Origin: Flavobacteriales bacterium
Lineage (GTDB): Bacteria; Bacteroidota; Bacteroidia; Flavobacteriales_E; Vicingaceae
Assembly: GCA_002401955.1 (NCBI GenBank)
Contig: NVUQ01000013.1
Span: 1 to 64,000, forward strand
Direction of reading: 5' to 3'
DNA: 64,000 nt
Both the position numbers and the translations under genes were made by a program. A model generated the notes under the pieces. The model saw nothing but the letters and a program-made list of their open reading frames with translations. It was not told the DNA's origin and did no database searches. Shown in pieces: positions 1-39,334 of the stretch. Every line of letters begins with the position of its first letter. Position 1 is the first letter of the stretch.

Positions 1-323
1 CCCATCTCGAATTCTTCGGCCGATGCCGCATCAAAACCGCGGGAGCGCAGATAGTCTCGCGCGGACTTACCCTGCGATTCAAGGAGCGCTTCCCGGTAGA
101 GTTCTTGCGCAATGGAATTCGCTTCGAAGATCCGCGCGCCAAGCCCGACTTCGGGAGCGCCGCGTTCTTCGGGAATTTCGATATTCAGATCTCCGGCCAG
201 CGAGCGAGCCGCTTCCGGAAACGACAGACCATCGTGTTTCATCAAGAACGCGATGACGTCGCCGCCTTCTTGGCATCCGAAACAATGAAAAATCTGTCGA
301 TCGGGATTGACGTTGAAGGACGG
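1..323 (-). CDS. dnaG: DnaG DNA primase fragment, foreign to the rest of the window
   Basis: Read on the minus strand, this stretch is open for 107 codons and gives the zinc-finger end of bacterial primase: PSFNVNPDRQIFHCFGC, then EGGDVIAFLMKHDGLSFPEA and a continuing helical region. DnaG makes RNA primers at replication forks; its CHC2 zinc finger lies at the N-terminus, and the HCFGC seen here is its second half. The first half (CPFH...KT) should lie just upstream but the sequence changes at about 323/324, directly before PSF. The DNA is visibly GC-rich with GC-ending codons, unlike everything after it. It also runs off the left edge. I read it as a piece of another genome (perhaps a high-GC proteobacterium) joined by assembly error; true transfer is less likely. 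The family call is firm, the cause is inference. Confidence 0.85.
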
Positions 324-933
324 TATTGGAGTATCTGCTGGAAAATATGGCTCGGTAAATCACAGAAGTACATGTATTGGATATGACGCCCGAAATTCAA
401 CTACTACAGATTATTCTTACAGTATGGCTCTGGGTAATGCAGCTAGGATAACAGCAACATACCAAGTAAGAGTTGGAAATACTAGTGTTACCTCAATAGG
501 CGGATATGAACCATGGACAGATTTGTCGGATAAACGATTTAAAAAGAATATTTCGGATAAGGTAGTTGGATTGAATTTCATTATGAAGTTACGTCCTGTA
601 ACCTACAATCTTGATATCGATAAGCTAGATGATTTTTTGAATGTTCCTGACTCTTCCAGAGATATTGAAGGTGTAAGAATAAAAGAAGCTATGTTAAAAA
701 CAGGGTTCCTAGCTCAAGAAGTTGAACAAGCATCTATAGAATGTGGAATTGAATTCAGTGGAGTTGACAAGCCAAAAAACGAGAACGATCACTACGGGCT
801 TAGGTATTCCATATTTGTAGTTCCATTGGTAAAAGCTGTACAAGAACAACAAAAAATAATAGAAGCTCAGGGAGAGTTCTTAAAAGAACTTAAAGCAGAA
901 ATTCAATTATTAAGGGGTAATACCGATTTGTAA
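324..933 (+). CDS. Tail-fibre-like protein with S74 chaperone domain, 5' end missing
   Basis: The AT-rich part of this frame begins at the junction with the dnaG fragment, so the N-terminus is missing and any Met before it belongs to the foreign piece. The visible protein has a repeat-like head (SMALGNAARITATYQVRVGN, TSVTSIGGYEPWTDLSD), then KRFKKNI and FIMKLRPVTYNLD, the hallmark of the Peptidase_S74 intramolecular chaperone domain of tail-spike and endosialidase proteins. It ends in a short coiled coil (VKAVQEQQKIIEAQ). In Bacteroidota such proteins are usually chromosomally encoded surface or tail-fibre-domain proteins rather than phage genes. The domain trimerises and helps fold the upstream stalk. 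Function of the missing part is unknown. Confidence 0.8.
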
Positions 934-1249: not shown

Positions 1250-2026
1250 ATGAAAAATAAAATATCCATTATAAAAATTGGTGGAAACATCGTAAATGAT
1301 GAAAAAGCACTAGATACTTTTTTAGCTAACTTTTCTAAAATAGAAAACACTAAAATATTAATTCATGGTGGTGGTAAAATTGCTTCTCAGCTCAATGATA
1401 AATTGGGTATTAAAACCATTATGAATGAAGGAGGAAGAATAAGCTCTGCTGAGAATTTAGACATCGTTACAATGATTGATGCTGGGTTAATCAATAAAAA
1501 AATAGTGAGTAAACTTCAAGGGTATAACTGTAATGCTTTAGGGTTATCTGGAAGTGATGCGAATTGTATTTTAGCTAATAAGCGACCTACCTCTCCTGTT
1601 GAATATGGATTTGTTGGTGATATCAAAGCAATTAATTCCTCTACCATAAAAATGTTTCTCTCACACGGCATAACTCCAGTATTCTGTGCGATTAGTCATG
1701 ATGGAAATGGACAGTTATTGAATACAAATGGGGATATTATGGCCTCTGAAATAGCAATTGCGATGAGTAAATATATCGATACTGAATTAATTTATTGCTT
1801 TGATAAGAAAGGCGTTTTGTCGGATATAACCAATGAACATTCTACCATAGAAAATATTAATTACGAAAAGTACTTAGCATTAAAAGAAAATAAGACGGTT
1901 AATGAAGGTATACTTCCTAAAATGGAAAATTGTTTTAACGCTTTAAACAATAAGGTAAGTAAGGTTTCTATTGGTGATCATAGTATGATAAATGGAAATG
2001 AAATTTTTACCACATTAACTTTATAG
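1250..2026 (+). CDS. argB: Acetylglutamate kinase ArgB
   Basis: ArgB phosphorylates N-acetylglutamate, the second step of ornithine/arginine synthesis in the cytoplasm; some Bacteroidota use succinylated intermediates, so the acyl group is not certain. The 258-aa protein has the amino-acid-kinase fold: KIGGNIV at the N-terminus (phosphate loop), ILIHGGGKIASQL, the acyl-substrate segment NEGGRI, LGLSGSDAN, and a late NEGILPKMENC. Length is normal. It is the first gene after a repeat-bearing gap, and its stop is followed one base later by the ATG of a truncated argE, so it is the surviving member of an arg operon. If the downstream genes are not elsewhere in the genome, ArgB may be a relic enzyme. 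Confidence 0.93.
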   Translation: MKNKISIIKIGGNIVNDEKALDTFLANFSKIENTKILIHGGGKIASQLNDKLGIKTIMNEGGRISSAENLDIVTMIDAGLINKKIVSKLQGYNCNALGLSGSDANCILANKRPTSPVEYGFVGDIKAINSSTIKMFLSHGITPVFCAISHDGNGQLLNTNGDIMASEIAIAMSKYIDTELIYCFDKKGVLSDITNEHSTIENINYEKYLALKENKTVNEGILPKMENCFNALNNKVSKVSIGDHSMINGNEIFTTLTL

Positions 2027-2027
2027 G

Positions 2028-2108
2028 ATGGAAAAAGAACTCACAATAAAAGCAATTGAACTTTTAAAGCAGTTTATTCAAACATCTTCTTTTTCTGGTA
2101 AAGAATAA
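2028..2108 (+). pseudogene. argE: argE 5' stub (acetylornithine deacetylase N-terminus)
   Basis: An ATG one base after the argB stop opens a 26-codon frame reading AIELLKQFIQTSSFSGKE then TAA. This is the standard N-terminus of ArgE-type M20 deacetylases (helix followed by T/P-SFS-x-E). All catalytic parts are missing, so this is a truncated gene, lying where argE belongs in the operon. Confidence 0.7.
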
Positions 2109-4648: not shown

Positions 4649-4782
4649 TGTAAAGTTTAACCTAATTATCGAAAAGAGCAATTGGGTTTAAAATTGAATA
4701 TGGGAACAAGCATTTTTAATCTATTAGCAGACCAAACAATAGCGGAAGAATTATTCAGAATACAAAACCTTGTAGTAGTTAT

Positions 4783-4905
4783 CCCAATTTAATTTCAAAA
4801 CACCCAACAATGTTTTTTGTATAAAACCGATAGATAAAAAACCCAAAATAGAGTATAACAAAATATCGGTGATTTTGATTTCAAATCGGTAGTATTGCAT
4901 ATACT
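4783..4905 (+). repeat. Interspersed intergenic repeat, plus copy
   Basis: AATTTAATTTCAAAACACCC, AACAATGTTTTTTGTATAA, then ACCGATAGAT and a closing TTTCAAATCGGT. Same family as 939-1037, 14173-14290 and 35665-35800; the middle here is diverged. It occupies most of the 304-bp gap between the phosphatase and the DoxX gene, which has nothing else recognisable. Confidence 0.65.
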
Positions 4906-13383: not shown

Positions 13384-14172
13384 ACCCAACATTGGTTTTT
13401 GTATAATGCCGTAATGGTACATATCGTTTTTACGTCATTGCGAGGCACGAAGCAATCTTATTCCTAATAGCAAGATTGTTTTAGCTTGAAATATTTATTC
13501 TGTTTCACCAAGTAATCTCTTGCATCTAGACCCCGGATCAAGTCCGGGGAGGGGTTGAGTTGTGGTGTTGTTAATTAAGTTATGGCGAGTGTTTTGCGAA
13601 AGCAAAAGCGGGAAGCAATCTCATTCAAAATAGCCTTTTTCATTTTTTTCGTTGGTAAAAACAATTGTCCTACACACTATAAAGGGTTTTCGGATGGAGG
13701 CGGCATTCAAAAATTTGGTGTGCAGGCTGAAACGAAACCTTAGTAAGAATGGAAAGTGCTGAACTTGCCTCAGTAATCACCCAACATTGGTTTTTGTATA
13801 ATGCCGTAATGGTACATATCGTTTATACGTCATTGCGAGGCACGAAGCAATCTTATTCCTAATAGCAAGATTGTTTTAGCTTGAAAATATTTATTCTGTT
13901 CCACCAAGTAATCTCTTGCATCTAGACCCCGGATCAAGTCCGGGGAGGGGTTGACTTGTGTTGTTAATTAAGTTGTGGCGAGTGTTTTGCGAAAGCAAAA
14001 GCGGAAAGAAATCTCATTCAAAATAGCCTTTTTCATTTTTTTCATTGGTAAAAACAATTGTTCTCTGAACCTATAAAGGGTTTTCGGATGGTGGCGGCAT
14101 TCAAAAATTTGGTGTGCGGGCTGAAAAGAAACCTTAGTAAGATTGGTAAGTGCTGAGCTTGCCTCAATAATC
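13384..14172 (+). repeat. Two tandem 394/395-bp intergenic repeat units
   Basis: Units 13384-13778 and 13779-14172 are near copies. Each runs: CACCCAACATTGGTTTTTG, TAATGCCGTAATGGTAC, CGTCATTGCGAGGCACGAAG, a CAATCTT..AAGATTG hairpin, the perfect-arm palindrome CCCCGGATCAAGTCCGGGG, GGCGAGTGTTTTGCGAAAGC, CCTTTTTCATTTTTTTC, CTATAAAGGGTTTTCGGATGG, and CTGAACTTGCCTC. Neither has a long conserved reading frame on either strand. No transposase is present. Lies inside the 1.5-kb gap 13203-14725. Confidence 0.88.
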
Positions 14173-14290
14173 ACCCAACAATGTTTTTTGAATAATGCCG
14201 ATAGAGATTCAAAGCCAGAGAATGAGTGTAACGAAATTATCAGGCATTTTGATAACAAATCGGTTAATCCTTAAATGAAAAATAAACGTG
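14173..14290 (+). repeat. Third, partial unit of the interspersed repeat family
   Basis: Begins in phase with the two tandem units (ACCCAACAATG) and then follows the 35665 copy instead: GCCGATAGA, TTCAAAGCCAGAGAATGAG, AACGAAATTATC, ACAAATCGGTTAATCC, TTAAATGAAAAATAAAC. The same leader region then continues to the micro-ORF, as it does at 35.7-36.0 kb. Confidence 0.75.
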
Positions 14291-35664: not shown

Positions 35665-35800
35665 GATATCAGTTTAATTTCAAAACACTTAACAATGGTT
35701 TTTGTATAATGCCGATAGATAATCAAAGCCAGAGAATGAGAGCAATGTAATTATCGGGCATTTTGATTACAAATCGGTTAATCCTTAAATGAAAAATAAA
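35665..35800 (+). repeat. Interspersed intergenic repeat, plus copy
   Basis: AGTTTAATTTCAAAACACTT, AACAATGGTTTTTGTATAAT, GCCGATAGATAATCAAAGCC, AATTATCGGGCATTTTG, AAATCGGTTAATCCTTAAAT. AATGCCGATA pairs with TATCGGGCATT with one bulged base, so it can fold. Another repeated pair follows: ATGTAAGATTTTGTAATAC occurs twice in 35800-35860. It lies in the 581-bp gap 35590-36170. Confidence 0.75.
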
Positions 35801-36170: not shown

Positions 36171-37958
36171 ATGAAGAGAAGAATATTAGTCATAGTAATT
36201 TATCTTTTGTTATCAAACATTGCAATTTCACAAAATTTAGTCCCTAATGGCGGGTTCGAAACTTATACAAGTTTACCAAACGGATATTCACAATTCTTTA
36301 AAGCTACAGGTTGGACAAATGTAAATGGAAATACCACTGGTGCCCCTTATGGTTCTCCCGATTATTATCATACTCTAGGAAGTGTACCAACTACTTGCGG
36401 TCCTATTTTACCTAATTCAGGGAACGGACAAATGGGGTTTTTCACTTACTTCACGTATTTTGGTAATGTTGATGCTCGGGAGTACACATCCACACAATTA
36501 ACTAATCCATTAATTTCTGGTCAACAGTACCAAATTTCTTTTTACCTTACTAATGGTAATGGTGGAGCTTATACTGGAACTGTTGATAATTTTGGTATTC
36601 ATCTCTCTGTAGGCCCTTTAACACAAGCAGTAGGTGAGGTAATTCAACTAACACCAACTATTGAAGTTACAGGTATTATTTCTAATCAGAATTACTGGCA
36701 GCAGTATATTTACACTTTCGTTGCTACTAATGCAGCTACAGACATTACCTTTGGAAACTTCGAAATAGATAGTACAACTACAATAGTTGGTGGCACAAAT
36801 GCATATTATTTCATCGATGATATTGAACTGGTTACTATTGCACCTCTTCTACAAATACTAGGTGACACCTCTATATGTATGGGAGACTCAACTACCCTGT
36901 TAGCCATAAACGATAATATATTTGCATGGGCAGACAGTATTAATCCCATGGTAATTCTCTCTACCGATTCAATAATCACGGTTGCGCCTACTGTTACAAC
37001 CACTTACTTTGTTTATGGCACTAACGATAGTACTTCAATCAAGGTAAATGTTTACAATTTTCCGATGATAAACTTGAATAATAAGACATCCTTATGTCAA
37101 GGAGAAACATTAACACTAGATGTAACCACAACAAATGCAACTTATTTGTGGCAAGACAATTCTACAAACCCAACTTTTAATGTTACACAACAAGGTACTT
37201 ATTGGGTAGAAGTAACTGAGAACAATTGTACTGCAACGGATACAATTCTAGTAAACTATAATCCATTACCATCAGTGAATTTAGGCAATGACGCCACTCT
37301 ATGCCAAGGTGAAACATTAACACTTGATGCAACTACTCCGAATGCTACTTATCTATGGCAAGACGACTCTACAAGTCCAACTCTCAATGCTACTCAACAA
37401 GGTTCTTATTGGGTTGAAGTTACCGTAAACAATTGCAGTACAACAGATACAATTCTAGTAAACTATAATCCATTACCATCAGTGAATTTAGGCAATGACG
37501 CCACTCTATGCCAAGGAGAAACATTAACACTTGATGCAACTACTCCAAATGCTACTTATCTATGGCAAGACACCTCTACAAGTTCAACTTTTAATGTTAC
37601 ACAACAAGGTACTTATTGGGTAGAAGTTACTGATAACTGTGGAAGCACATCGGACACCATAATTATTGATTTAGAAGATTGCAATTGCACATTATACGTC
37701 CCAAATTCTTTCACCCCAAATACTGACGGTAAGAATGATCAATTTTCGCCAATATTTGATTGTGATATTACTGAATATACTTTCATCATTTTTAATCGTT
37801 GGGGAGAGCTAATCTTTGAGACTAATACTCAAAATAATTCATGGAGTGGAAGTTTTAAAGGAAAACTATGTCCAACAGGAGTTTATATTTATATTTTAAA
37901 ATATAGATATGAGGGAATCTATCAAAAAAAATATGGTAATGTAAATTTATTAAAATGA
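36171..37958 (+). CDS. T9SS type B secreted protein with three Ig-like repeats
   Basis: 595 aa, signal peptide (MKRRILVIVIYLLLSNIAIS), an N-terminal carbohydrate-binding-like jelly-roll domain (LVPNGGFETYTSLPNGYSQ, TGWTNVNGN, GFFTYF), a short linker, then three near-identical repeats of ~73-75 residues (LCQGETLTLDATTPNATYLW, GTYWVEVT, TDTILVNYNPLPSVNLGND), and a type B sorting domain (VPNSFTPNTDGKNDQF, IFNRWGELIFETN, PTGVYIYILKY). Likely a surface-attached adhesin. The repeat section is repeated at DNA level (about 37246-37640), so unit number can vary. Confidence 0.88.
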   Translation: MKRRILVIVIYLLLSNIAISQNLVPNGGFETYTSLPNGYSQFFKATGWTNVNGNTTGAPYGSPDYYHTLGSVPTTCGPILPNSGNGQMGFFTYFTYFGNVDAREYTSTQLTNPLISGQQYQISFYLTNGNGGAYTGTVDNFGIHLSVGPLTQAVGEVIQLTPTIEVTGIISNQNYWQQYIYTFVATNAATDITFGNFEIDSTTTIVGGTNAYYFIDDIELVTIAPLLQILGDTSICMGDSTTLLAINDNIFAWADSINPMVILSTDSIITVAPTVTTTYFVYGTNDSTSIKVNVYNFPMINLNNKTSLCQGETLTLDVTTTNATYLWQDNSTNPTFNVTQQGTYWVEVTENNCTATDTILVNYNPLPSVNLGNDATLCQGETLTLDATTPNATYLWQDDSTSPTLNATQQGSYWVEVTVNNCSTTDTILVNYNPLPSVNLGNDATLCQGETLTLDATTPNATYLWQDTSTSSTFNVTQQGTYWVEVTDNCGSTSDTIIIDLEDCNCTLYVPNSFTPNTDGKNDQFSPIFDCDITEYTFIIFNRWGELIFETNTQNNSWSGSFKGKLCPTGVYIYILKYRYEGIYQKKYGNVNLLK

Positions 37959-38302
37959 TAGAAAATACCTTCGGTATTAACAGCCTTATTCCTCGTTTTA
38001 TTCTTTCTGGTTATTATTCTAAATATAATGATTTACAAACTTAGGTCGGTATTACTCCTCTTTTTCAATTTCCGCACTACACATAGAATACTATTTTCTA
38101 GTTAAAACTAAATGTTTTTTAAAATTATTGTAACTTATTATTGTAACTTATTATTGTTTATTGTGTAGTATTGTATATTATTGACTCATATTTAAAGCGG
38201 CTTGAGATTCAAAGGGGTAGAAGCAATAACTAAACTTACGCTTACTACTAAGTAAACATAAAGAATGAATATTATTTTAACTTTTATAAAAAACTACTTG
38301 TT
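37959..38302. other. Gap before a hypothetical envelope gene
   Basis: AGTTAAAACTAAATGT (about 38100) also occurs in the leader before the metzincin gene (about 14332), and TAGAAGCAATAACTAAACT resembles that leader just ahead of the micro-ORF. Here no MKTG frame survives. TTATTGTAACTTATTATTG is a short direct repeat. No gene recognised. Confidence 0.45.
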
Positions 38303-39334
38303 ATGAGGAAAATCATATTATTTATTGTCTTAACCTTTTTTGGTTTTATAGCAAGAACACAAGTTTTAACACTTTCTGATTCAGTAGTCTTTTTAAATGA
38401 CTCTATTGATAATTTAACAACAAAAGTAGCTAATATAAAAGATACATTAGATGACTTAAAAGAAGACTTAAAGCCTATATTTGATATTCACCGTTTTAAA
38501 GATGCTTTTGCAAAGAATGGTGGAAAGGATACGAGTGGAACTATAACCATAACCAATAAACCAATTAAAGTTCATTATTGTTCTGAATTCCCTCTATACA
38601 TATTAAATAATCAATTGAAGAATAGAATAACTAATAAAATTAAATATCGTACGTTTTCTTATGAGTTAGATAGTCAAGACATCAACTTATTTAATCGATA
38701 CATTAAAAATAAAAAATTCAAATTATCCCCCAATGCCGTTTCAAGTGACAGCTTAGATATAGGTATAAAATGGGGTTTGTTCAGAAAAAATATAACGATT
38801 AAACAATATAAAACAGATACTTTAAAAAATGTAACACTAAACATCAATCAAGATAGAATACAAAATATTTCAATAAAAGTATCGGAACGAAAGCCATTTT
38901 TCACATCAAAATCGCCAATCCCATTTTATTCGTTAAAAAAATCGAAAAGCACGGATAAATTAGAGAATAAAAATCATGAATACATTTATGCAACAGATGT
39001 GCTAGAAGACTATTCTCCAACCAATTTCAAATATCAAGTTCACCTTGATTCAACCTACTCTAAAATTAAACCTGGCAGTAAGATTACGCTGTATGACACT
39101 AAAGACATTAATCACTTCATTAATTACTCAATCTACTCAGACTTACCTTCTTTATTAAACAAAGGGTCAAATGGATTGATTGAACTTAAATTTGATGGTT
39201 CATTAATTCTAAACAGAAAAAATCATAAAAATAAACGTTTATATTGGCTGAGAGATTTATCAGGTAATTTTAAATTGGCAAAAATAGATAGTGAATTTAG
39301 TGTTATAGAAAGAAAAGAAAGTAATAACAAATAA
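38303..39334 (+). CDS. Hypothetical exported protein, likely 5' half of a frameshifted gene
   Basis: 343 aa with a signal peptide (MRKIILFIVLTFFGFIARTQ), a short coiled coil (LNDSIDNLTTKVANIKDTLDDLKEDL), then a beta-rich region without recognised motifs (VHYCSEFPLYILNN, DLPSLLNKGSNGLIELKFDG, NKRLYWLRDLSGNFKL). It ends at an A-rich run (AGAAAGAAAAGAAAG, ~39308-39321). In another frame, the sequence past this run stays open into the next ORF, whose product looks like the barrel end of an outer-membrane protein; one indel would fuse the two. Confidence 0.6.
   Translation: MRKIILFIVLTFFGFIARTQVLTLSDSVVFLNDSIDNLTTKVANIKDTLDDLKEDLKPIFDIHRFKDAFAKNGGKDTSGTITITNKPIKVHYCSEFPLYILNNQLKNRITNKIKYRTFSYELDSQDINLFNRYIKNKKFKLSPNAVSSDSLDIGIKWGLFRKNITIKQYKTDTLKNVTLNINQDRIQNISIKVSERKPFFTSKSPIPFYSLKKSKSTDKLENKNHEYIYATDVLEDYSPTNFKYQVHLDSTYSKIKPGSKITLYDTKDINHFINYSIYSDLPSLLNKGSNGLIELKFDGSLILNRKNHKNKRLYWLRDLSGNFKLAKIDSEFSVIERKESNNK

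Follow-up and report, generated by a model that had tools for sequence, protein, structure and literature searches.

How does a stretch of GC-rich primase sequence come to lie beside AT-rich host DNA at the very beginning of a contig? The window, that is, the whole stretch of 64,000 nucleotides that was analysed, corresponds to bases 1-64,000 of contig C49 (69,900 bases), so that its position 1 is the contig end; the draft genome to which it belongs comprises 4.19 Mb in 150 contigs and is 83% complete. GC content is 0.57 over bases 1-323 and 0.61 over 1-160 alone; by about 480 it has dropped to about 0.35. The DNA from 324 on is host-like (about 0.32-0.36), and the rest of the window (63.7 kb) is even in GC, at about 0.30-0.35. 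The joint can be placed to the base, since homology to the DnaG of relatives starts at 323 and identity to the host contig C15 starts at 324. Two lineages are thus fused at a single point that interrupts a gene on each side, and left of the breakpoint the foreign and native sequences have 0 bases in common. The abrupt junction between a GC-rich dnaG fragment and host DNA, reported in a preliminary description made from the sequence alone, is thus borne out by the profile matches, the GC step and the exact limits at 323/324. The features are listed in the Table, together with similar contig heads from the same genome.

Table. Features at the start of the window (contig C49) and foreign heads of three other contigs.
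Feature	Contig	Position	Strand	Remarks
Foreign GC-rich internal dnaG piece, CHC2 zinc finger and following region (TIGR01391 45-155)	C49	1..323	-	Both ends truncated
Chimeric joint	C49	323..324	.	No shared bases left of breakpoint; placed by homology and identity limits
103-base terminal overlap with the end of C15	C49	324..426	+	102/103 identical; marks the very probable true neighbour
Peptidase_S74-domain surface protein	C49	324..933	+	C-terminal ~202 codons and stop; first ~413 codons in C15 (L009:18660 onward)
Foreign head: aminotransferase III and SIS-domain gene pieces	C85	1-930		Locus L204
Foreign head: DegT/DnrJ/EryC1 aminotransferase piece	C99	1-267		Locus L218
Foreign head: GNAT and short-chain dehydrogenase (SDR) pieces	C140	1-775		Locus L260

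On the minus strand, 323..3 is open over 107 codons. When bases of the same composition are shuffled, 1.6% of trials remain open over an equal length, so the evidence for dnaG lies in homology and not in the open frame. The fragment matches the Pfam profile Zn_ribbon_DnaG (3.3e-18, profile 44-96) and the NCBIfam model dnaG, TIGR01391 (3.6e-28, positions 45-155 of 414), and contains the CHC2 zinc-finger domain (PF01807, 65.7 bits, partial, profile 44-96). Like other DnaG proteins it has the conserved HCFGC and GGD motifs, but its ~107 codons come without a start, a TOPRIM domain or a genomic context of their own, and with 98.6 bits against the TIGR01391 cut-off of 283.6 it falls short of a full-length primase with a TOPRIM core. 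The closest relative in the genome collection is a MAG labelled Deltaproteobacteria bacterium UBA4427 (71% amino acid and 74% nucleotide identity), followed by the unclassified MAG 'bacterium isolate Co_bin.94' (69 and 70%). In both relatives DnaG runs on upstream with ...CPFHNEKT, while the homology of the window breaks off at the joint, precisely at the CCG codon. Because the relatives' DnaG continues past this point, the fragment, cut on one side by the contig edge and on the other by the joint, has no natural end on either side. The host has an intact dnaG of its own on C100 (445.9 bits, 660-codon frame); this distant gene, 39% identical to the fragment, is the fragment's sole significant match in its own genome besides itself. 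Judged by these comparisons, 1-323 is a piece of bacterial DnaG from a lineage other than the host.

The exact donor was not found in the genome collection, where the two nearest genomes reach only 70-74% nucleotide identity, and 13 other genomes of the genus have no match to 1-323 or to the joint. No mobile element was found, nor a structured RNA at the window start. A phage or plasmid origin of the piece was considered and rejected, as phage and plasmid records hold no DNA match to 1-323. At the protein level, phage matches are mostly less than 60% identical (about 40-46% for the best-ranked), and matches in viral contigs cover mainly the short zinc-finger stretch, whereas the cellular MAG primases are 69-71% identical over the whole piece.

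On the other side of the joint, the plus-strand open reading frame that ends at 933 carries a Peptidase_S74 domain (1.2e-9). Its native upstream part is present elsewhere in the same assembly: beginning exactly at the joint, window bases 324-426 equal the last 103 bases of C15 with one mismatch. C15 ends within an open frame of 447 codons, and joining it to the window from 324 onward gives a single unbroken frame of 620 codons over the joint, beginning at a plausible start (MSFKFITTTLLFLSS...) and reaching the stop at 933; as assembled, frames crossing 323/324 attain at most 127 codons. C15 is thus very probably the true upstream neighbour of window position 324. The preliminary description had suspected that the start of the downstream gene was wrong, and it was right to do so: the TTG at 307 is spurious because 307-323 are part of the foreign piece, and the end of C15 supplies what natively lies upstream. 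It had also named the product a tail-fibre protein. The plus-strand gene from 324 stands, but the label is too specific: the signal-peptide-like N-terminus (judged by eye) and the chromosomal S74-domain paralogues on C18 and C19 of the same genome (open frames of 1067 and 1127 aa) favour reading it as a cell-surface protein or adhesin.

The same paralogues, and the single mismatch, would also fit a reading in which the 103-base overlap is a repeat shared among adhesin genes. This would leave the foreign origin of 1-323 untouched, but C15 would no longer be adjacent. Such a reading is improbable, since C15 alone in the genome gives a significant DNA match to 324-426 and the joined frame stays open all the way from a plausible start to the S74 domain; in addition, C15 and the window share arg-gene and other duplicates, which could be coincidence.

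These duplicates lie just downstream. Window 1250-2104 holds an argB-like gene and the truncated start of an argE-like gene. It shares 93% identity with a section (37891-38737) of an intact arg cluster on C15, and this cluster is very probably situated some 12 kb upstream of the window copy. From its sequence, this segment appears to be a partial segmental duplication. Adjoining the argB copy, 1050-1247 matches C15:47344-47539 at 89% identity, with the match reaching into the 3' end of a gene for a TPR/HTH regulator, and by the same comparison would be a second duplicate remnant. An interspersed repeat of ~120 bases occupies 917-1040, with more copies at about 4779-4894, 14166-14274 and 35666-35788 of the window. 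At least 35 copies, 82-92% identical, occur on many contigs and on both strands, and one copy (87%) is found in a same-genus genome. The repeat ends in short inverted repeats (AATACCGAT...ATCGGTATT); its folding is no better than that of shuffled sequence (z -0.86), and it has 0 Rfam matches.

The start of C49 is one of several of its kind. When 163 contig ends (141 starts and 22 ends) were searched for GC steps close to the edge, an abrupt step with a log-likelihood gain above 30 was seen at four (C49, C85, C99 and C140), the fifth-ranking end reaching 13.4. The starts of C85, C99 and C140 likewise consist of GC-rich foreign gene pieces fused mid-gene to host DNA (Table), and none of them holds a structured RNA. 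The host side of C140, from 776, opens with exactly the last 99 bases of C27 (100%), and the native join of the two restores a 459-codon SurA-like gene (named by eye); that of C85, from 931, opens with exactly the last 99 bases of C34 (100%), and here the native join restores a frame of at least 689 codons. At all three joints with a known neighbour (C49, C85 and C140), foreign and native sequence share 0 bases to the left of the breakpoint. The host side of C99 starts at 268 with a 35-base repeat (C99:268-302). Copies of this repeat, 32-35 bases long (TTATAACGGGTGTTTTGATTCATAATTGGTATTAC), also occur close to the ends of C24, C74, C122, C19 and C85, at a distance of about 63-109 bases, so the true neighbour of C99 is ambiguous; the repeat probably marks a boundary at which the assembly broke. 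Five further contigs (C2, C6, C79, C114 and C132) have a GC content of 0.54-0.65 throughout their first 1.5 kb, while contig starts (first 320 bases) average about 0.33; these are probably whole contigs that were wrongly binned here.

Contigs that share exactly 99 terminal bases are characteristic of a de Bruijn assembly built at k=99. The overlaps at C85 and C140 point to this value for the present assembly graph, and many other contig starts, which have terminal stretches in common with one another that extend to base 96-99, fit it as well. Taken together, the foreign heads at C49, C85, C99 and C140 and the 99-base overlaps at C85 and C140 indicate an artefact that recurs where the de Bruijn graph branches. 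At C49, a dnaG piece of an unrelated GC-rich community member was almost certainly joined to the host S74-domain gene at a branch of the assembly graph, the real upstream DNA being left over as the end of the separate contig C15; at each such branch the contig takes the foreign path, while the native path is found at the end of another contig. The joints are blunt and fall within genes from different donors, as would be expected of chimeric library molecules or reads, and such molecules or reads in the k=99 graph, rather than a scaffolding or local-extension error, are the presumed cause. One counter-point is that C49 and C15 overlap by 103 bases with a mismatch and not by an exact 99-mer as at C85 and C140; the graph step at C49 may have been slightly different.

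The same geometry, with foreign heads of different genes at C85, C99 and C140, speaks against a real horizontal transfer, insertion or rearrangement, by which a foreign dnaG fragment would lie inside the S74 gene in a subpopulation and C15 would be the unbroken allele. Such an event would look alike from the sequence alone, and the single mismatch in the 103-base overlap could mean two strains. However, the contig edge truncates the fragment, a head piece alone is seen and never a return to host DNA, and neither a mobile element nor a phage or plasmid DNA match was found; a real insertion is accordingly very improbable. That the contig derives from a GC-rich organism, with the AT-rich part as the foreign one, has nothing besides the joint itself in its favour and can practically be dismissed, being already contradicted by composition (the other 63.7 kb resemble most contig starts of the genome in GC) and by contig overlap (C15, from the same assembly, continues the AT-rich side and encodes a T9SS type B sorting domain protein).

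Bases 1-323 are therefore almost certainly chimeric sequence, due to an assembly or library error, at one end of a metagenome-type contig. The chimeric contig end proposed in the preliminary description is supported by the C15 overlap and the 620-codon frame, as well as by the same artefact at three other contigs. That contigs of prokaryotic genomes can be chimeric is a well-recognised problem, for which detection tools exist (GUNC, PMC8201837). The present case resembles chimeric MAG contigs in the one-point fusion of two lineages at a contig end, with an abrupt change of composition and lineage, without a mobile element and recurrent in the assembly. It differs in the shortness of the foreign heads (about 0.27-0.93 kb) and in that a terminal overlap of ~99 bases still allows the displaced native neighbour to be traced within the bin.

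The feature is thus an artefact and not a real biological junction, and its relevance is limited to data hygiene: bases 1-323 should be trimmed, and the start at 307 should not be used. The terminal-overlap test, in which a foreign head is followed by ~99 bases equal to another contig's end, located the true neighbour for three of the four chimeric ends seen (C49, C85 and C140) and offers a simple, read-free chimera finder for bins.
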